Shown here one piece after another: positions 3,773 to 33,537 of a stretch of 64,000 nt of DNA (position 1 is its first letter; each line of letters starts with the position of its first letter). The stretch lies in contig CAUJDF010000014.1 of assembly GCA_963169045.1 (NCBI GenBank), forward strand, positions 124,001 to 188,000, read 5' to 3'. This DNA comes from Myxococcota bacterium (GTDB lineage: Bacteria; Myxococcota_A; Bradymonadia; UBA7976; UBA1532). The translations under genes were made by a program, and so were the position numbers. The notes beneath the pieces were generated by a model. The model ran no database searches and was not told where the DNA came from. It was given only the letters and a program-made list of their open reading frames with translations.

Positions 3773-4729
3773 ATGAAATTCGAACCCCGCATCGTCACCG
3801 CCGCCCCCGAAACCGCAACCGCGCTCGTCCGCGACGTCGGCGCCCTCGAAGAGAAGGGCGTGCTGCGCAGCCGCTGGCCCTTCTGGAGGGCGTGGCGCGA
3901 GAAGGAATGGTTCTTCTCGTGCCTGCACGATCCGCAGGCCGGCGTCTACTGTAGCTGGACGTTCGCGCGGACGTTCTATGCGGAGACCTTCCGCTTCTGG
4001 CTGTGCGACCTGCGCACGGACCGATCGTGGCACCTCGACCGACGGATCTTGTTCGACCGTCAGCAGACGCCCGGGCACCTCGACCTGCGTTGGGCGAAGC
4101 GCGGCGCCCTCATCGAGTACCAGGGCGCCGGCGACGAGGCCGCCTTCTCGATGCGCGACGAGCGTTTCCGCGTCGACCTGGAGCTCGTGCGCCGATGGCC
4201 GTCCTTCGTGCGCCGCGAGAACCAGTTCGTATGTGATTACACGCTGTTGCACGACTTCGGAAACGAGGTGCGCGGCGCGATCGAGGTCGAGGGCGAGCGG
4301 TTCGCGGTCGACACGCGCCGCTGTTATACCGACCACTGCTTCGGGCGCGTCCCCTCGCGAACCGGCTGGCACTGGCTCGCGGTGCAGGACGAGCAGCTCG
4401 CGCTCGCGTCCCTCGTGAACTACGGGCCGTACGCGCAGCGATACACCCAGATGTTCGCCGGCGGGGAGTGGGTCCGCCTCGCGCCGGACGTGAACTTCGA
4501 CTACGACCCGCGGCGGCCGCTCGAACCCTGGCGTGTCACGTCGGTGGACCTGGACCTCGTCGCGCGCCCGGTGCGCCTGCATCCGGACCGCGTGCGCGTG
4601 CCGCCGTTCGTCGACATCCGGCACGACGAGCTCCACGTCGAGGTCGAGGGCCGCGTGCGCGTGGAGGGCCGCTGGCGCGCCGTCGGCGGCCTCACCGGCG
4701 TGATGGAGTCCCACCACGGCCGCTGGTGA
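3773..4729 (+). CDS. DUF2804 family protein
   Basis: 318 residues. The ATG at 3773 starts the recognisable homologous region; the ribosome site is weak. The sequence is rich in aromatic residues and predicted beta strands, with blocks WPFWRAWREKEWFF, CYTDHCFGRVPSRTGWHWLAV and GVMESHHGRW. These fit DUF2804, proteins of about 320-350 residues related in fold to the lipocalin-like AttH/CrtC group. Molecular role unknown. No signal peptide or membrane segment is seen. It is divergent from the lysozyme gene, with a 127-bp spacer, and its stop directly abuts the stop of the transporter on the other strand. Confidence 0.8.
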   Translation: MKFEPRIVTAAPETATALVRDVGALEEKGVLRSRWPFWRAWREKEWFFSCLHDPQAGVYCSWTFARTFYAETFRFWLCDLRTDRSWHLDRRILFDRQQTPGHLDLRWAKRGALIEYQGAGDEAAFSMRDERFRVDLELVRRWPSFVRRENQFVCDYTLLHDFGNEVRGAIEVEGERFAVDTRRCYTDHCFGRVPSRTGWHWLAVQDEQLALASLVNYGPYAQRYTQMFAGGEWVRLAPDVNFDYDPRRPLEPWRVTSVDLDLVARPVRLHPDRVRVPPFVDIRHDELHVEVEGRVRVEGRWRAVGGLTGVMESHHGRW

Positions 4730-6040
4730 TCACGGCACGCCGAAGAGGCGCAGCACCAGGGGGCCGGTCCATGTCACGAGCGCGGCGCCGGCGAGCATCA
4801 CCACGAGGCCGGGCACCAGCAGGTCCCGCGAGGTCACGCCGCCCTCGCCGTAGACCATCGCGTTGGGCGGCGTGCTGACCACGAAGGGCGCGCCGAGCGA
4901 GGTCGCCACCGCCACGAGGACCGCCGTGGACGGCGCGGGATCGATCTGCAGCGCGAGCGGGATCAGCATCGTCGCGGTGCCGGTGTTGCTCATCAGCGCG
5001 CTCATCGTCGCCGCCGCGAGCACGAAGACGAGCAGGCGGAGCGTCGCCGGCGCGGCCTCGAGGCCGAGGCGGGCGGTCACGGCGTCGACGAGCCCGGCGT
5101 GTTCGATGAGGCGGCCGAGGCCGATGCCGCCGGCGATGAGCAGCAGCGTGCCCCAGTCGATCTTCGCGAGGTCGTCGCGGGCGAGCAGGCCGGCGCCGAA
5201 CAGCAGGACGACCGCGGCGAGCGCGACGAGGGCCGCCGCGACGCCGTGGAGGGGCTCGGTGAGCCACGCGACGACCGTGACGCCGAAGACCACGAGCAGC
5301 CCACGGCCGGCCGGCGAGAGGCGCGCCGCGGGCGCGGCGGGCGCCTCGAACGCGCCGCGGACGCGGTGGCGCCGGACGAGGACGACGTAGGCGACCGCGA
5401 TCAGGCCGATCGCGAGCGGCACGCCGAAGAGCATCCAGGCGGCGAAGGTGATGTGGTGCTGCGCCTCGGCGGCGGCGATGGCGATGCCGTTGGGTCCCGT
5501 GCCGACGGGCGTGGCGAGGCCGCCGAAGTTGCCGCCCATCGCGATGGCGACGAGGACGGCGCGGCGGAAGGCGTCGTCCGGTGGGAGCGCGGCGAGCACC
5601 GGGCGCGACGCCGCGATCATCATCGCCGCGGCGGCCACGTTCGACATCCACATGGACAGCACGGCCGTCCCGCCCATCAGGAGGCCGAGGAGCCGCGCCC
5701 GCCGGCCCCGCGAGGCGCGCACGAGGCGCTGCGCCAGCGCCGCGTCGAGGCCGTGCCGGCGCGCGGCCACGCCGAGCGCGAAGCCGCCGAAGAACAGCGT
5801 CAGGACGGGGTCCGCCGACCAGGCGAGCGCCTTCGGCAGCGAGACGTCGGACAGGAGAAGGGGGCTCGCGAGCCACAGGATGACCGTGGGCAGGAACGCG
5901 GGCACCGCCTCGGTGAGCCAGAGCACGAGGCACACGGTGACGATGGCCGTGGCGCGGCCGAGGCGCGGCTCCGGCACGAGCGCGAGCGCGGCGGCGCCGG
6001 CGGCGAGGCTGAGGGCGACGGCGATCGGCGGGCGTCTCAC
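4730..6040 (-). CDS. SLC13/DASS-type sodium:anion symporter
   Basis: 436 residues and about eleven hydrophobic helices. Two inverted-repeat signature regions are visible: SNVAAAAMM followed by GGNFGGLATPVGTGPNGIAI, and SNTGTATMLIP followed by SLGAPFVVSTPPNAMVYG. In SLC13/CitT transporters these SNT-type motifs bind sodium and the carboxylate or sulfate substrate. The first motif reads SNV rather than SNT. The protein should import a di- or tricarboxylate or an oxyanion across the inner membrane; the substrate cannot be told from sequence. Length is normal for the family. It stands alone between the DUF2804 gene (stops adjoin) and the histidine kinase operon. Confidence 0.85.
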   Translation of the reverse strand: MRRPPIAVALSLAAGAAALALVPEPRLGRATAIVTVCLVLWLTEAVPAFLPTVILWLASPLLLSDVSLPKALAWSADPVLTLFFGGFALGVAARRHGLDAALAQRLVRASRGRRARLLGLLMGGTAVLSMWMSNVAAAAMMIAASRPVLAALPPDDAFRRAVLVAIAMGGNFGGLATPVGTGPNGIAIAAAEAQHHITFAAWMLFGVPLAIGLIAVAYVVLVRRHRVRGAFEAPAAPAARLSPAGRGLLVVFGVTVVAWLTEPLHGVAAALVALAAVVLLFGAGLLARDDLAKIDWGTLLLIAGGIGLGRLIEHAGLVDAVTARLGLEAAPATLRLLVFVLAAATMSALMSNTGTATMLIPLALQIDPAPSTAVLVAVATSLGAPFVVSTPPNAMVYGEGGVTSRDLLVPGLVVMLAGAALVTWTGPLVLRLFGVP

Positions 6041-6098
6041 GCGGCGCGGCTCCGGCGGTCGCCGGCGACCATAGCACCGGCGCGCCCGGCCGCGCGCG

Positions 6099-7253
6099 TC
6101 ACTCCTTGGGCGCGGGGGCGGGCAGCGCGAGGTAGACGGCGGCGCCCTGTCCGGGCATCGACTCGGCCCACGCGCGGCCGCGGTGGCGCTCGGCGATGGT
6201 GCGCACGGTGAAGAGGCCGAGGCCGTGACCGGGGAACTCGCCGGGGCGGTGGGCCTGGCGGAAGGCCTCGAAGACCTGCACCGCGTACCCCGGCGGGAAG
6301 CCGACGCCGTTGTCGCGCACGCAGCAGACGATCTCGCGATCGCGGGCCTGGCTGTGGACCTCGATGCGCGCTCCGGCGCGGCCGCGCGTGAACTTGAAGG
6401 CGTTGTCGATCAAGGCCGAGAGGGCGATGCGCAGCAGCGCGGGGTGACCTTCGACCTCATGCGGCGCGTCGACGACGACGGCGATCTCGCGCTCGGGCTC
6501 GGCCGCTCGGGCGGCGGCGATCGCCTCCCAGGCGAGCGCGTCGAGACGCACGCGCTCGCGGTGGAGCGGCGCGCGGCGGACCTCCGTGAACTCGAGCATC
6601 GCGTCGAGGATGCCGCTCATGCGATCCGCGGCCCGGATGACGCGCTCGAGGACGTCGGTGCCCGGCGCCCCGAGCGCGGGGGCGTGGTCCTCGAGCAGCA
6701 CGCCGGTCAGGCCGCCGATCGTGCGCAGCGCCGCCCGCAGGTTGTGGGAGGCGGAGTAGGTGAAGACCTCGAGCTCGCGGTGCGCCGTCTCGAGCTCCTC
6801 GAACTTCTGGGCGAGCTGGTCGGCGACGAGGCGCCGGTACTCGCGGTCGAAGCCCTCGCCGAGCGGCGCGGGGGCCGCGCGGCGGTCCTCGCCGAGGATG
6901 TCGGCCACGGTGCGCAAGAGCTCGGCGGGCTCGGTGGGCGACTTGAGCACGTTCACCGCGCCGCCGGCGACCGCCAGGGCGCGCACGCGCTCGTCGTCGT
7001 AGGTGCTCGTGCGGAAGACCACGGGCGTCGCGGCCACCTCGGGATCGGCGCGCAGCTGCCGCAGGAACTCGAACCCGTCCATCGTCGGCATCACGAGGTC
7101 GGAGATGATCAGATCGGGGCGCTCCTTGCGCACGCACTCGAGCGCCTCGGCGCCATCGGTCGCTTCGATCACGCGGTGGCCGGCGTAACCGAGCAGCGTC
7201 CGCAGGAACTGCCGGTTCGAGGCCCGGTCGTCGACGACGAGGATGGTCGCCAT
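6099..7253 (-). CDS. receiver domain-histidine kinase fusion protein
   Basis: 384 residues; ATG at 7253, two nucleotides after the stop of the upstream receiver gene. Residues 3-122 are a complete receiver: acidic pair at 8-9, phospho-acceptor Asp52 (SDLVMPTMDG), Lys104 (LKSP). A short coiled linker (140-165) leads to a HisKA-type helix with His170 in ASHNLRAALRTI, then an HATPase with N box DNAFKF, G1 DNGVGFPPG and G2 GHGLGLFTV. There is no membrane segment. This layout, a soluble kinase controlled by its own N-terminal receiver, is typical of relay or phytochrome-like kinases. It is the last gene of the phosphorelay operon and may act as the output or a feedback kinase. No DNA-binding output is encoded in the four-gene signalling block. 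Confidence 0.9.
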   Translation of the reverse strand: MATILVVDDRASNRQFLRTLLGYAGHRVIEATDGAEALECVRKERPDLIISDLVMPTMDGFEFLRQLRADPEVAATPVVFRTSTYDDERVRALAVAGGAVNVLKSPTEPAELLRTVADILGEDRRAAPAPLGEGFDREYRRLVADQLAQKFEELETAHRELEVFTYSASHNLRAALRTIGGLTGVLLEDHAPALGAPGTDVLERVIRAADRMSGILDAMLEFTEVRRAPLHRERVRLDALAWEAIAAARAAEPEREIAVVVDAPHEVEGHPALLRIALSALIDNAFKFTRGRAGARIEVHSQARDREIVCCVRDNGVGFPPGYAVQVFEAFRQAHRPGEFPGHGLGLFTVRTIAERHRGRAWAESMPGQGAAVYLALPAPAPKE

Positions 7254-13523: not shown

Positions 13524-15029
<1,506 letters not shown>

Positions 15030-15048
15030 CGGGCGAAGCATAGACGCA

Positions 15049-15074
15049 TCACGCGCCCGATCACACGCGGTCAC
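15049..15074 (+). promoter_or_regulatory. phased TCAC repeats, probable upstream activator site A
   Basis: Three direct copies of TCAC begin at 15049, 15061 and 15071 (ATCACGC, GATCACAC, GTCACGTCC), spaced 12 and 10 bp. The last two lie exactly 68 and 58 bp before the sigma-54 promoter at 15129, the same distances as in the second copy at 17179-17206. They also sit just upstream of the divergent FHA-AAA+ gene start, so binding there could regulate that gene too. Confidence 0.65.
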
Positions 15075-15128
15075 GTCCCCACACGCCGCCGGAGGACCGC
15101 GCCCCACGCGGCGCTGGGGCCGCGACGG

Positions 15129-15143
15129 TGGCACGACGGTTGC
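15129..15143 (+). promoter_or_regulatory. sigma-54 promoter (-24/-12)
   Basis: TGGCACGACGGTTGC matches the sigma-54 consensus TGGCACG-N4-TTGC with GG and GC exactly 10 nt apart. It lies 35 nt before the lipoprotein start at 15179, which has GGGGAGG before it. Transcription would start near 15155. Confidence 0.85.
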
Positions 15144-15178
15144 GATTGGGGTCCGCCCGAACCGATGGGGAGGCGAAC

Positions 15179-17167
15179 ATGAAGCGCGCGATGGTCAAGG
15201 TGCAGTGGGTGGTGCTGGCGGCGGCGCTGGGGGCGTGCGGCGAGGCGGCGCCGGGCGACGAGGCGTGGGCGACCGACGAAGCGGCGATCGTCGAGGGCAG
15301 CGCGGAGGCGGCCGGCGTTCTGCGCGTCGCCAACACGCTCGACTTCGCCACGCTCGACGTGGACGTGGGCCTCGACGCCCGCGCCGCGCGCAACATCGTC
15401 GAGCGGCGCGGCGCCGGCTACCCGACGCTCGCCGCGCTCGAGGCGGTGCCGTACGTCGGCGACATCGCGATCGGCCGGATGCAGACCTACGCCGAGCGCC
15501 AGGGCTGGATCGAGGCCGCCCCGCCGCCGCCGGAGGGCGCCGTCATCGTGAACGGTGTCGCCGAGGGCAGCGCGGAGGCGCGGGCCATCCTCGGGCTCGC
15601 CAACACGGCGCCCGCGGCGGTGCTCGACGTCGACGCCGGCCTCGACATCCGCGCGGTGAGCCACATCGTCGCCCGTCGGCCCTTCGCGGACCTCGCCGCG
15701 CTCGACGCCGTCCCGTACGTCACGGCGACGGCCTTCCAGCGGCTGCTGGCCTACGCCGGCACGGCGGCGGCGCCGCCCGCGCCGCCGGCGCCGCCCGCCG
15801 GGCCGCCGTACCAGGACACGCCGGTCGTCCTCGGCGTGCGCGAGGGCAGCTACGAGGGCCTCGCCCTCTTGCGCGTCGCCAACGAGGCGACGCTGGCCCA
15901 GCTCGACGACGACGCGGGCCTCGACGCCCGCGCGGCGAAGGCGATCTTCCACACGCGCGCCGCGAACGGCGCCTACCGCACCCTCGGCGCGCTCGACGCG
16001 GTGCCGAACGTCGGCCAGGCGGCCTTCGACCGCATGCTCGCCTACGCCCGGCAGCACAACCTGCTGACGCGCTGCGGCGACCGCGTCGTGCAGCCGGTCA
16101 TGGAGCAGTGCGACGGCGGCGTCGGCTGCGACGCGCAGTGCCGCTTCACGTACCACTGCGGCGACGGCGCGCTCGAGGTGGGCGAGCAGTGCGACGACGG
16201 GAACGCCGCGAGCCGCGACGGCTGCAGCGCCCAGTGCCGGACCGAGCTCCTGTACGAGAGCGCCGACAACCGCAGCATCGACACCGCCGACGACCTGCGC
16301 ACCTTCCGCGAGGTCGCCGGCCGGCTCGACGGCGAGGGCGACCGCGCCTACATCCGCTTCACGCTCGACCGCCCGACGCGGGTGCGCATCGACGTGGCCG
16401 GCGGCGACACCGACCGCTGCGTGTGGTTCGGATTCCTGAGCCCGGTCGGCGTCTACCACAGCGACCTGTTCGACCCGGACGCGCAGATCCGCGACGCGAA
16501 CGACCGTCCCATCGCCTCGTTCGACACCAACTGCGGCCGGCGCGCGCCCGACCTCGCCGGCTACGACATGAACCAGCTGCTGCAGCCGGGCACCTACTAC
16601 CTGCGCCTCGAAGGTCAGGACGTCGGCGGCGGCTGGGACTCCGAGTACCGGATCGGCTACAACGCGCGGTTCGCGTTCGAGGCCGCCGGGCCCGTGTGCG
16701 GCAACGGCCGCGTCGAGGCGCCCGAGGCGTGCGACGACGGCAACCCCGCGAGCGGCGACGGATGCAGCCAGCAGTGCGCGGTCGAGACGCTGGCCGAGGT
16801 GGAGCCGAACGACGCGCCGCAGGGCGCGCGGGCGCTCGGGACGTACGTGTTCGCGAGCGGCGACATCCACCGCGCGGGCGACGAGGACTGGTGGGCGGTG
16901 CACGTGCCGGCGGGCGGCGGCCTGCTCGCCGAGGTGAGCGACGGCGCGGGCGGCTGCGACTTCGACGCGCGCCTGGAGGTGTTCGACGCGGCGGGCGTCC
17001 AGATCGCCTGGGACGACGACGACGGCCCCGGCTACTGCCCGCGGCTCGACTCCGCCCGCGACCCCGCCGTGCGTGCGCTCCCCGGCGGCGTGTACACGCT
17101 GCGCGTGCGGCATGCCGACGCGCGCCTCGTCGGCGCCCCGTACCGGCTCGAGGTGCGCGTCCGCTGA
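15179..17167 (+). CDS. surface lipoprotein with three HhH-like (ComEA-like) repeats and CDDGN cysteine repeats
   Basis: 662 residues. ATG at 15179 has GGGGAGG upstream and gives a lipoprotein signal (AALGAC, Cys20). Three repeats of about 60 residues follow (about 40-300), each with EGSAEA..LRVAN, LD.DVGLDARAA..I, and LDAVPYVG. They look like the helix-hairpin-helix units of ComEA-type proteins, which bind DNA. Next come two CDDGN repeats of the Myxococcus Cys-rich type (CGDGALEVGEQCDDGN and CGNGRVEAPEACDDGN) alternating with two beta-rich domains similar to pre-peptidase C-terminal modules, the last with DDDDGPGYCPRLD. A Pro/Ala linker separates repeats 2 and 3. It is driven by a sigma-54 promoter. 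A DNA-binding role at the cell surface is an inference from the repeats only. Confidence 0.8.
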   Translation: MKRAMVKVQWVVLAAALGACGEAAPGDEAWATDEAAIVEGSAEAAGVLRVANTLDFATLDVDVGLDARAARNIVERRGAGYPTLAALEAVPYVGDIAIGRMQTYAERQGWIEAAPPPPEGAVIVNGVAEGSAEARAILGLANTAPAAVLDVDAGLDIRAVSHIVARRPFADLAALDAVPYVTATAFQRLLAYAGTAAAPPAPPAPPAGPPYQDTPVVLGVREGSYEGLALLRVANEATLAQLDDDAGLDARAAKAIFHTRAANGAYRTLGALDAVPNVGQAAFDRMLAYARQHNLLTRCGDRVVQPVMEQCDGGVGCDAQCRFTYHCGDGALEVGEQCDDGNAASRDGCSAQCRTELLYESADNRSIDTADDLRTFREVAGRLDGEGDRAYIRFTLDRPTRVRIDVAGGDTDRCVWFGFLSPVGVYHSDLFDPDAQIRDANDRPIASFDTNCGRRAPDLAGYDMNQLLQPGTYYLRLEGQDVGGGWDSEYRIGYNARFAFEAAGPVCGNGRVEAPEACDDGNPASGDGCSQQCAVETLAEVEPNDAPQGARALGTYVFASGDIHRAGDEDWWAVHVPAGGGLLAEVSDGAGGCDFDARLEVFDAAGVQIAWDDDDGPGYCPRLDSARDPAVRALPGGVYTLRVRHADARLVGAPYRLEVRVR

Positions 17168-17178
17168 GCGCGCCGCGA

Positions 17179-17206
17179 TCACGCGCGATCACGCCCGCTC
17201 ACGTCC
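17179..17206 (+). promoter_or_regulatory. phased TCAC repeats, probable upstream activator site B
   Basis: Three TCAC units begin at 17179, 17189 and 17199, exactly 10 bp apart (GATCACGCGC, GATCACGCCC, GCTCACGTCC), so all face the same side of the helix. The third is 58 bp before the sigma-54 promoter, identical to site A. It begins 11 nt after the stop of the preceding lipoprotein. Confidence 0.68.
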
Positions 17207-17256
17207 GACGCGGTGCGACCGCCCTCGCCGGCCGCACCGCCGCTGCCTCGTCCCGC

Positions 17257-17271
17257 TGGCACGCCTGTTGC
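17257..17271 (+). promoter_or_regulatory. sigma-54 promoter (-24/-12)
   Basis: TGGCACGCCTGTTGC is a perfect fit to TGGCACG-N4-TTGC. It lies 35 nt before the ATG at 17307, the same spacing as for the promoter at 15129, so the two genes should be coregulated. Confidence 0.87.
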
Positions 17272-17306: not shown

Positions 17307-20138
17307 ATGCGTTACGTCGTCGCCTGTCTCGCCGCTGTCGCCCTCGGCGCCTGCGAATCGTCCAACAGCCAGTTCGCGCCGCTCGCGGACGCCGCGCCCG
17401 CCGGCGATGCGGCCCCGGCGCCCGACGCGGGCGGCGCCGGCGGTCAGGGGGGCGCCGGCGGAGAAGGGGGCGCCGGCGGCATGGGCGGCGAGGGCGGCGC
17501 CGGCGGCATGGGCGGCGAGGGCGGCGCCGGCGGCATGGGCGGCGAGGGCGGCGCCGGCGGCATGGGCGGCGGCGACCCCCCCGAGTGCGCCGAGGGCGCC
17601 GAGAGCCGCGTGCCCTGCGGGGTGAACGACCGCGGGACGCGCCGCCGCTTCTGCCGCGACGGCGCCTGGGTCCTCGACGGCGCCTGCGAGGACGTCGACA
17701 CCTGCGCCGAGGGCGCCACCGAGACCGAGGCGTGCGGCGAGCAGGGCAACGGCACGCGCAGCCGCCTCTGTCGCGACGGCCGCTTCAGCGCGTGGAGCGC
17801 CTGCGACGACCCCGACCGCGTCTGCGAGGACGGCGCGGTCGAGCAGGTCCCGTGCGGCCTGAACCGCCGCGGCACGACCACCCACGGCTGCGTCGACGGC
17901 CGCTTCGGGCCGTTCGGCGAGTGCGCGGATCCCGACGTGTGCGTCGACGACGCGGTCGGCCGCGAGGCCTGCGGCCTGAACGAGCGCGGCGCCCGCAGCC
18001 GCACCTGCGTGGAGGGCGTCTGGGGCGACCTCGGCGCCTGCGACGACCCCGACGCCTGCGTCGACGGCGCCGCCGAGGCGGTGCCCTGCGGCCGCAACGA
18101 GAACGGCCGCAGCACCCGCACCTGCGTCGAGGGCCAGTGGGGGGGGTTCGGCGCCTGCGTCGATCCCGACGAGTGCACGAACGGCACGACCGAGGCCGAT
18201 CCCGAGCCGTGCGGCATCGAGGGGCGCGGCGAGCGCGCCCGGACGTGCGCCGACGGCCGGTGGAGCCCGTACGGCGCCTGCGACGACCCCGATCGCGTGT
18301 GCGCCGACGGCGAGCGCGAGTCGGTGCCCTGCGGCGTCAACGGGCGCGGCGAGCAGGTCCGCGAGTGCGTCGACGGCCGCTGGGGACCCCTCGGCGAGTG
18401 CGCGGACGACGACGTCTGCGTCGACCGCGCCGAGCAGTCCGAGCCGTGCGGCCGCAACGACCGCGGCCGCCGCGTGCGCACCTGCGCCGACGGCGCCTGG
18501 GGGGCGTGGAGCGCCTGCGACGATCCCGACGCCTGCGTCGACGGCGACACCGAGGACCACGCCTGCGGCCGCAACGGGCGCGGCACCCGCACGCGCGCCT
18601 GCCAGGACGGCCAGTGGTCGGCGTTCGGCGCGTGCGCCGATCCCGACGTCTGCGTCGACGGCGCCCGGCAGGAGGAGGCCTGCGGCGCGGGCGGCGCCGG
18701 CACGCGGGCCCGCGCCTGCGTCCAGGGGCGCTGGGCGGCGTGGGGGGCCTGCGTCGAGCCGGACGGGCGCTGCGATCCCGCGCTCGACGCGCACTGCCGC
18801 ACGTGCACCGACGCCCACGAGGTCAACGACCGCCCCGACGACGCGCGCCAGGTCCAGGCGGGCCAGGTCCGCAACCTGACCGCCTGCAACGACGTCGACC
18901 CGCGCGACTACTACCTGCTCGTCATCGACCGCCCGCAGTACATCGCCGTCCGCGCCGTCTGGACGGAGCGCCCGTCGGACCGCCGCCTGGGCATCGACCT
19001 GCTCGACGCCCGCGGCCTCGCGATCCTGCCGTCCTACGGCAGCGCCACGAACCTCGAGGGCGACGCCCGCGTGAACGGCTACCTGCCCGTCGGCCGCTAC
19101 CACGTCCGCGTGACCGCGCTCGAACGCGAGGTGCCGTACCGTCTCGAGGTGACGTTCGAGCCCATCCCGCTGTGCCCCTTCGAACCGGTGGACTGCGTCG
19201 ACTGCAGCGACGCCTTCGACGGGAACGACCGCCTCGCCGCCGCCGTGCCAATCGAGGCCGGCCAGCGCTACACCGACCTCGAGGTCTGCCAGGGGGCGGA
19301 CGACTGGTTCCGCTTCGACATCGACGGGCCGTCCCACGTGCGCGCCGAGATCACGACGACGCGGCGCGGCGGGACGCAGTCGGTGTGGGTGTTCGACGGG
19401 GACGGGCAGCGGCCGTTCCACATCGGCGGCTTCGACGGGGCGGGCCGGCACTGGATCCAGGGCGAGATCAACCGGCGGATGACGGTGTACGTCCAGGTGG
19501 ATGCCGGGACGGGCGCCGCGCGCTACGACCTGCAGGTCACCGTCACGCCGCTCGCGCCGGCGGCCTGCGCCAACGGTGTCGACGACGACCGCGACGGGCG
19601 CGTCGACCTCGCCGACCGCGGCTGCCTGAACGCGCTCGACGACAGCGAGGTCGATCCGGCGATGCGCCCCGAGTGCGGCAACGGCGTCGACGACGACGAG
19701 GACGGCCGACCCGACTACCCGCAGGACCCGGACTGCGTCTCCGCCGGCCATCCGGTCGAGGAGCGTCCCTGCGTCGCCGACGTCGAGGTCGTGCCGGTCG
19801 ACGAGAGCGGCCGCTTCGAGGTCGACACGAGCGGCGCCCCCGACCTGCTCGGCGCGAGCTGCGGCAACCCCACCGGCGGCGAAGTGGTCTTCGCGGTGCG
19901 CCTCGACGCGCCGGGCGAGGTCGTGGCCGAGGTCGTCGAGGCCTCGTTCGACACCATCCTGTCCGTCCGCAGCATCTGCGACGTGACGGCGTCGAGCCTC
20001 TCCTGCAACGACGACCTGGCCCCCGGCAACCTGCGCTCCCGCCTCGCCCTCGAGCTGCCCGCCGGGCTCAGCCTCGTCGTGCTCGACGGCTTCGGCGGCG
20101 GCCGCGGCCGCGCCGTCGTCGACTTCACGCTGCCCTGA
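17307..20138 (+). CDS. large surface lipoprotein with ten TSP1-like Cys repeats
   Basis: 943 residues; ATG at 17307 follows GGAGG. Lipobox LGAC at Cys16, then an Asp/Ala/Pro linker and a Gly-rich stalk of GGAGGMGGE units (54-89). Residues about 93-488 hold ten tandem repeats of 39-42 residues with four cysteines each, pattern C-x-x-G, CGxNxRGT, CxDGxW, CxDPD; these resemble thrombospondin type-1 like repeats. Two pre-peptidase-C-like beta domains follow (about 495-760), each introduced by a short Cys cluster. Then come two CxNGVDDDxDG calcium-type motifs and a final beta domain. This is an adhesin- or matrix-like surface protein by architecture; the ligand is unknown. Paired by its sigma-54 promoter with the upstream HhH lipoprotein. 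Confidence 0.82.
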   Translation: MRYVVACLAAVALGACESSNSQFAPLADAAPAGDAAPAPDAGGAGGQGGAGGEGGAGGMGGEGGAGGMGGEGGAGGMGGEGGAGGMGGGDPPECAEGAESRVPCGVNDRGTRRRFCRDGAWVLDGACEDVDTCAEGATETEACGEQGNGTRSRLCRDGRFSAWSACDDPDRVCEDGAVEQVPCGLNRRGTTTHGCVDGRFGPFGECADPDVCVDDAVGREACGLNERGARSRTCVEGVWGDLGACDDPDACVDGAAEAVPCGRNENGRSTRTCVEGQWGGFGACVDPDECTNGTTEADPEPCGIEGRGERARTCADGRWSPYGACDDPDRVCADGERESVPCGVNGRGEQVRECVDGRWGPLGECADDDVCVDRAEQSEPCGRNDRGRRVRTCADGAWGAWSACDDPDACVDGDTEDHACGRNGRGTRTRACQDGQWSAFGACADPDVCVDGARQEEACGAGGAGTRARACVQGRWAAWGACVEPDGRCDPALDAHCRTCTDAHEVNDRPDDARQVQAGQVRNLTACNDVDPRDYYLLVIDRPQYIAVRAVWTERPSDRRLGIDLLDARGLAILPSYGSATNLEGDARVNGYLPVGRYHVRVTALEREVPYRLEVTFEPIPLCPFEPVDCVDCSDAFDGNDRLAAAVPIEAGQRYTDLEVCQGADDWFRFDIDGPSHVRAEITTTRRGGTQSVWVFDGDGQRPFHIGGFDGAGRHWIQGEINRRMTVYVQVDAGTGAARYDLQVTVTPLAPAACANGVDDDRDGRVDLADRGCLNALDDSEVDPAMRPECGNGVDDDEDGRPDYPQDPDCVSAGHPVEERPCVADVEVVPVDESGRFEVDTSGAPDLLGASCGNPTGGEVVFAVRLDAPGEVVAEVVEASFDTILSVRSICDVTASSLSCNDDLAPGNLRSRLALELPAGLSLVVLDGFGGGRGRAVVDFTLP
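17466..17573 (+). repeat. 27-bp tandem repeat encoding GGAGGMGGE
   Basis: Four nearly identical 27-bp units lie inside the lipoprotein gene and encode the Gly-rich stalk. In-frame copy-number change by slippage would alter stalk length without breaking the gene. Confidence 0.85.
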
Positions 20139-29930: not shown

Positions 29931-31795
<1,865 letters not shown>

Positions 31796-31799
<4 letters not shown>

Positions 31800-33522: not shown

Positions 33523-33537
33523 TGGCACGGCGGATGC
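33523..33537 (+). promoter_or_regulatory. sigma-54-like promoter for the hemerythrin gene
   Basis: TGGCACGGCGGATGC keeps GG and GC at the correct 10-nt spacing and the whole TGGCACG block; only one T of TTGC is replaced (ATGC). It lies 32 nt before the ATG at 33570. No TCAC repeats are seen at the 58-bp distance, so another activator would be needed. Confidence 0.6.

Follow-up and report, generated by a model that had tools for sequence, protein, structure and literature searches.

TCAC arrays upstream of sigma-54 promoters of lipoprotein genes and a co-distributed FHA-AAA+ regulator subfamily lacking GAFTGA

Within a stretch of 64,000 nucleotides from a Myxococcota bacterium (hereafter the window), two successive lipoprotein genes are preceded by sigma-54 promoters and, further upstream, by direct TCAC repeats, and a gene for an FHA-AAA+ regulator lies divergent to the first of them. 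A sequence-only reading of this DNA had taken the repeats for an enhancer serving an AAA+ activator. The locus raises the question of whether these arrays are the sites of the neighboring regulator, and how a protein without the GAFTGA motif might act at sigma-54 promoters. The features concerned are as follows (window coordinates):

13524..15029, minus strand: FHA-AAA+ regulator gene, 501 aa (FHA domain at residues 63-118; sigma-54-activator-type AAA+ domain at 144-306; putative Fis-like HTH at about 407-443; about 55 extra residues)
15049..15074, plus strand: TCAC array 1, units at 15049, 15061 and 15071 (spacing 12 and 10)
15129..15143, plus strand: sigma-54 promoter TGGCACG-ACGG-TTGC, exact pattern match
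15179..17167, plus strand: HhH lipoprotein gene, 662 aa (HhH_3, ComEA-like; DUF4215/myxo_disulf_rpt; PPC; lipoprotein signal by eye)
17179..17202, plus strand: TCAC array 2, units at 17179, 17189 and 17199 (spacing 10 and 10)
17257..17271, plus strand: sigma-54 promoter TGGCACG-CCTG-TTGC, exact pattern match
17307..20138, plus strand: Cys-rich repeat lipoprotein gene, 943 aa (no Pfam match at E 0.001; lipoprotein signal by eye)

Promoters, arrays and lipoprotein genes in the window

The two promoters, TGGCACGACGGTTGC starting at 15129 and TGGCACGCCTGTTGC starting at 17257 on the plus strand, are the only matches to TGGCACN5TTGC on either strand of the window, and each ends 35 nt before the ATG of its lipoprotein gene (15179 and 17307), exactly where the sequence-only reading had placed them. 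The description of three TCAC units per site, the last two about one helical turn apart, was likewise accurate: the units of array 1 lie 80, 68 and 58 bp upstream of the first promoter and those of array 2 lie 78, 68 and 58 bp upstream of the second, so that only the last two coincide in distance. At the TCAC frequency of the window, chance would give about 0.0004 TCACN6TCAC pairs in the 61 positions before a single promoter. Between the two sites, the 54-bp spacers are identical at 19/54 positions (shuffle mean 20.1); as this likeness does not exceed chance, recent copying alone does not account for the shared distance. Elsewhere in the window, at 33523-33537, the sequence TGGCACGGCGGATGC agrees with the sigma-54 consensus at 10/11 positions; an ATG follows about 32 nt further on, and there is no TCAC array.

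The first target had been described as a surface HhH-repeat lipoprotein, and its HhH_3 domain and lipoprotein signal bear this out; its match to ComEA repeats (TIGR01259, E 3e-5) lies below the cut-off. To judge from domain content, DNA binding at the cell surface is a possible function of the HhH lipoproteins. The label "TSP1-like" given to the second lipoprotein found no support, this protein having no Pfam match at E 0.001.

Further sites and the distribution of the regulator subfamily

We searched 57 genomes of the class with the pattern TCACN6TCACN{30,90}TGGCACN5TTG, which matched in four of them: this genome (G000; contigs C14 twice, C75 and C24), G007 (C543 and C499), G008 (C776) and G002 (C225). 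The reversed control gave one match in the 57 genomes. We treated the G002 match as chance, since that genome has no member of the regulator subfamily and the surroundings look coding by eye. The other seven sites, two of them the original window pair, are S1 to S7; S8 was found only via its gene. The search for additional copies ahead of TGGCACGN4TTGC suggested by the sequence-only reading was thus productive, bringing the total to eight: S1 and S2 in the window, S3 (C75) and S4 (C24) elsewhere in this genome, and four in two genomes of the same family (S5 on C543 and S6 on C499 of G007; S7 on C776 and S8 on C39 of G008). The TCAC-N6-TCAC core is present at all eight sites; because the pattern itself requires a TCAC pair and a promoter, their pairing is partly by construction at seven. 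In this genome, 3 of 36 strict TGGCACN5TTGC sites bear an array, compared with five matches for the promoter alone and none for the combination in the reversed control. Among the six non-window sites, C75 and G008 C776 carry an exact TGGCACG-N4-TTGC, and in the remaining four the -12 part deviates at a single position (TTGT, TTGA, TTGA, TCGC).

The third strict-pattern site, S3, has units 80, 68, 58 and 48 bp upstream of its promoter and is divergent from a paralogous FHA-AAA+ gene whose product shares 77% identity with the window regulator. Site S8, with units at 79, 66 and 56 bp plus a TCAC at 37, precedes the promoter TGGCACG-GTCT-TCGC. The unit consensus is mainly ATCACGC (22 units from seven sites, 40-82 bp upstream). 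From S1 to S8, the proximal unit lies 58, 58, 48, 47, 46, 47, 44 and 56 bp from the promoter; beyond the core pair, a further distal unit follows at 12 bp in S1, S3, S5 and S7, at 10 bp in S2, at 8 bp in S6 and at 13 bp in S8, and S4 has no extra distal unit nearer than 33 bp. The identical distance reported for the window (58 bp at both sites) is therefore a local fact: across genomes the 10-bp core is kept, and the proximal unit ranges over 44-58 bp, so that the conserved spacing expected in relatives holds within the array and not toward the promoter. Helical phasing of the units is only moderate: for periods of 10-11 bp, R is 0.72-0.78 with p 0.016-0.008, and at 10.5 bp R is 0.76 with p about 0.01. 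The count left out the TCAC at 112 (S1), 102 (S3), 90 (S4), 98 (S6) and 37 (S8), the statistic is not independent because several sites are related, and the largest deviations in phase are those of S7 and S8.

A gene with a lipoprotein-type signal (judged by eye) lies behind each of the eight sites, and at six of them it encodes a ComEA-like HhH lipoprotein. At S3, a short ORF comes first and a CotH/C-type-lectin lipoprotein gene second; this short ORF (L008, 9507 onward, G000:C75) begins with ATG directly behind the promoter. A protein search with the first 300 residues of the window HhH lipoprotein (E<=1e-12) retrieved two genes each in G000, G007 and G008, along with a single distant relative in G002 and another in G004. 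The TCAC-N6-TCAC core and a sigma-54 promoter lie upstream of all six HhH genes in the genomes that have the regulator (five already known from the pattern), the promoter of the G007 C609 gene being located on C499, whose end overlaps the C609 start. Upstream of the two relatives in the regulator-free G002 and G004, the same combination was looked for and not found. A KADGFAL motif near the N-terminus was seen by eye in 5/6 HhH lipoproteins, the window protein being the exception.

Among the 57 class genomes, members of the regulator subfamily (matching at E about 1e-281 or better) occur only in G000 (two copies), G007 and G008 (completeness 95%, 75% and 92%); the next match is a GAFTGA-type protein of G002 at 9e-63. 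Arrays with promoter are thus found in 3/3 subfamily genomes versus 1/54 others (Fisher p 1.4e-4, with the kinship of the three genomes ignored), which strengthens the link to an FHA-AAA+ regulator made in the sequence-only reading. Moreover, the regulator gene is divergent from an array and sigma-54 promoter in 3 of 4 cases (window, C75 and G007); in G008, a methyltransferase-like ORF (by eye) separates it from the HhH lipoprotein gene. Among 377 sampled genomes of the phylum (class members included, four candidates scored per genome), further homologues were found in G197 (57%) and G279 (51%), and a separate contig scan yielded one at L069, perhaps the same as that of G279. In the stretches inspected upstream of the G197 and L069 homologues, both outside the class, no arrays were found. 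Upstream of the former, at about 1290-1540 of L122 (G197:C251), repeated hairpin-like elements with TTCACACTTT occur instead.

Chance, or shared ancestry without function, is on these data a most improbable explanation of the arrays. TCAC is short, and triplets of the form TCACN{6,8}TCACN6TCAC occur in 8/13 family genomes, five of which have no regulator; S1 and S3 are related by descent (spacers identical at 29/54 positions, p 0.007), and S5/S7 and S6/S8 may be as well. However, the expectation per promoter and the reversed control already contradict a chance origin, the S1 and S2 spacers are unrelated, and TCAC is kept in differing arrangements. The occurrence of triplets in regulator-free genomes means that the triplet alone is not specific, and that specificity lies in the pair with its promoter. 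A strict sigma-54 promoter follows 3 of the 5 distinct G000 triplets (C14 twice, C75), and a near-consensus one follows 1 of 2 in G007; the triplets in G004, G007 (C559), G009, G010, G012 and G002 (C131) were counted by pattern alone. The C39 and C102 triplets of G000 were considered as regulon members and set aside, the first having no sigma-54 promoter and the second no -24/-12 by eye. At the latter position (L063 6939-6972; G000:C102:52938-52971, minus strand), four TCAC at 10-bp steps stand directly before a Cys-rich lipoprotein gene, which may be an additional target served by a different kind of promoter.

Binding of the arrays by an unrelated protein that assists these sigma-54 promoters also appears improbable, although clearly less so. 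Its precedent is BosR, which in Borrelia acts at a direct repeat ahead of the rpoS promoter (PMC3037356, available in part). The direct repeats upstream of a sigma-54 promoter are a shared trait; BosR, however, is of the Fur/PerR type and not AAA+. Against such a protein stand the co-distribution of arrays and promoter with the FHA-AAA+ subfamily and the fact that the arrays adjoin the regulator gene, with units also in front of the G008 regulator gene.

Our preferred reading, to which we give somewhat more credence than to all others, is that the local FHA-AAA+ regulator binds the TCAC arrays and controls a lipoprotein regulon from sigma-54 promoters, and probably also itself. The regulator would recognize TCAC units arranged head to tail, with a TCAC-N6-TCAC core that spans one helical turn from unit to unit, about 45-80 bp upstream and thereby control a small set of surface lipoproteins, mainly ComEA-like HhH proteins together with the Cys-rich repeat and CotH/C-type-lectin lipoproteins.

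The regulator, its loop and its own apparent promoter

The AAA+ domain of the regulator matches PF00158 (E 8.6e-42, 143 bits against a cut-off of 20.2). The closest PDB entries, whether by sequence or by fold, are proteins of the sigma-54-activator type, for example NifA, NtrC1, PspF and FleQ, with fold matches to NtrC1, NtrX, PspF and FleQ (model mean pLDDT 71). Walker A (GEMGTGKT), Walker B (FLDE) and the RxDLxxR arginines are kept in 4/4 aligned members. No Pfam HTH match was found in the C-terminus; the putative Fis-like HTH corresponds to predicted helices 407-416, 421-427 and 432-443 (block pLDDT 80-88 in the full model; 55 for the C-terminal domain modeled alone). In the L1 loop, GGFIPT stands where GAFTGA is expected; in the alignment it falls opposite the GAFTGA of NifA and NtrC1, with a gap of one residue close by. 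The loop reads x-F-I-P-x instead in each of the six subfamily members examined (GGFIPT, ANFIPQ, SGFIPS or PGFIPT). A pattern-based survey returned 25 distinct loops, three from the subfamily; the other 22 keep G-x-[FYH]-[TS]-G, 11 of them as exact GAFTGA. Such a survey can miss loops, and it missed those of G007 and G008 (taken from the alignment) and L069. In a loop scan of the window, the regulator gene was the only AAA+ gene of its type that was found.

The proposed enhancer for an AAA+ activator consequently stands only in part: recurrence and co-occurrence with the FHA-AAA+ gene agree with it, and the missing GAFTGA puts the regulator's own role as a sigma-54 activator in doubt. As one answer, the conserved x-F-I-P-x-V loop may replace GAFTGA and still remodel the sigma-54 holoenzyme, guided by the helically phased repeats; we regard this as plausible and hold it tentatively. 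Under it, the regulator would open sigma-54 complexes through the x-F-I-P-x loop. We also considered whether an additional rpoN had evolved alongside the unusual loop; none was found, one rpoN match being obtained in each of the 13 family genomes (this one included; several incomplete).

Rather less likely, in our view, is that the regulator binds TCAC and cannot contact sigma-54, serving as a repressor, an anti-activator or a sigma-70-type regulator of its own gene while another GAFTGA activator opens the promoters. Such a role would fit the replacement of GAFTGA in 6/6 members by a loop one residue shorter, as well as the 38 activator-like AAA+ stretches of this genome (E<=1e-30, two of them the subfamily members), which offer many other candidate activators. 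GAFTGA loss mostly means loss of sigma-54 activation or sigma-70 targets, and the known NtrC-like proteins without the motif, namely Caulobacter and Rhodobacter NtrC, TyrR, HupR and VspR, are reported to act at sigma-70 promoters (PMC10274813 and PMC3162934, accessible portions). The regulator resembles these in having a sigma-54-activator-type AAA+ domain without the sigma-54 contact motif; unlike theirs, however, its apparent targets are near-consensus sigma-54 promoters, which the TCAC arrays accompany site by site, including S8, which the pattern did not retrieve. The loop, moreover, is conserved rather than decayed (F-I-P in 6/6), and the ATPase residues are retained. Changes in GAFTGA are mostly severe and the threonine is critical in PspF, yet NorR G266D or G266N is still active (PMC2941729, in part). 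Likewise, DVUA0100 of Desulfovibrio vulgaris, with GVATGV, is predicted to control a sigma-54 regulon of type III secretion targets (PMC4641369, in part); the degenerate loop and the predicted sigma-54 regulon are common to both systems, and the loop and the targets differ.

Autoregulation by the FHA-AAA+ regulator is suggested by the layout of its own start region, where the following element occurs:

15037..15042, minus strand: apparent -10 element TATGCT of the regulator gene, 7 nt before the ATG

In four class members, TATGCT, TATGAT, TAGGAT or TAGGAT is followed by 7 nt and the start codon (6 nt in L069), and under this layout the C75 regulator would start at a GTG 9 nt downstream of the ATG used for translation. 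The regulator genes therefore appear to be leaderless, if these elements are promoters. Array 1 lies just upstream of the -10, across the -35 region, and TCAC units are found upstream of the regulator start at 23-45 bp in the window, at 36, 48 and 58 bp in G007, and at 36 and 49 bp in G008, where they are present despite the separation from the lipoprotein gene. With units across its own -35 region, the regulator probably controls its own synthesis too, as in a divergent activator/target pair. In the XylR-dependent Ps/Pr region, activator sites of a sigma-54 promoter overlap the promoter of the activator itself. The divergent layout and the activator sites across the own promoter are shared with that system; unlike XylR, which has GAFTGA and an effector-binding domain, the present regulator carries an FHA domain.

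The FHA domain suggests a phosphothreonine input, and a phosphoprotein bound by it would be the signal. A speculative source of the phosphorylation is a kinase of the window:

29931..31799, plus strand: Ser/Thr kinase, membrane part at the C-terminus; 48% identical to a G008 kinase over 619 aa

The G008 kinase gene (L042 1869-3770) directly follows an HhH lipoprotein gene, and the kinase is near the regulator in both genomes; other kinases compared reached 30-43% over shorter stretches.

Relation to known systems

In outline, tandem half-sites have precedents among sigma-54 activators, and so does the control of surface proteins by sigma-54. Nla28 of Myxococcus xanthus has tandem half-sites upstream of sigma-54 promoters, that of its own gene included (PMC9765219, in part), and the present arrays resemble them in comprising several tandem short half-sites upstream of TGGCACG-N4-TTGC and also before the regulator's own gene. 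The Nla28 half-site, CT(C/G)CG(C/G)AG, is variably spaced; here the unit is TCAC with a 10-bp core, and the regulator has an FHA domain and the x-F-I-P-x loop. Control of the cell exterior by sigma-54 is also published (PMC3162934, in part). The suggestion that the regulon is undescribed may thus hold for the TCAC arrays, and does not hold for tandem half-sites or exterior control as such. A topic-level literature search, which covered few subscription papers and did not query the letters FIP or TCAC, found nothing on an FIP-type loop or TCAC arrays; nor did such a system appear in literature on FHA, direct repeats and Myxococcus, on ComEA-like lipoproteins, on Bradymonadales sigma-54 or FHA, or on helically phased or PilR-type direct repeats. 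A similar layout with another regulator is present in G002 (C67; L065, about 4060-6894), where the promoter TGGCACGCCCCTTGA lies behind GTGAC/GTCAC repeats and precedes the gene of a secreted protein; next comes an FHA-AAA+ gene whose loop, GAFTGS, is near-normal.

The eight sites amount to a compact regulon with a candidate cognate regulator. They also present a contradiction, in that a GAFTGA-less subfamily accompanies near-consensus sigma-54 promoters, whereas a large survey excluded such proteins as sigma-54 activators (PMC3162934, as far as its accessible text goes). Either outcome would be informative, revealing a novel loop for the contact or an AAA+ protein that has become a repressor at sigma-54 promoters; if the former is true, the x-F-I-P-x-V loop would be a second solution to a sigma-54 contact thought to need GAFTGA.
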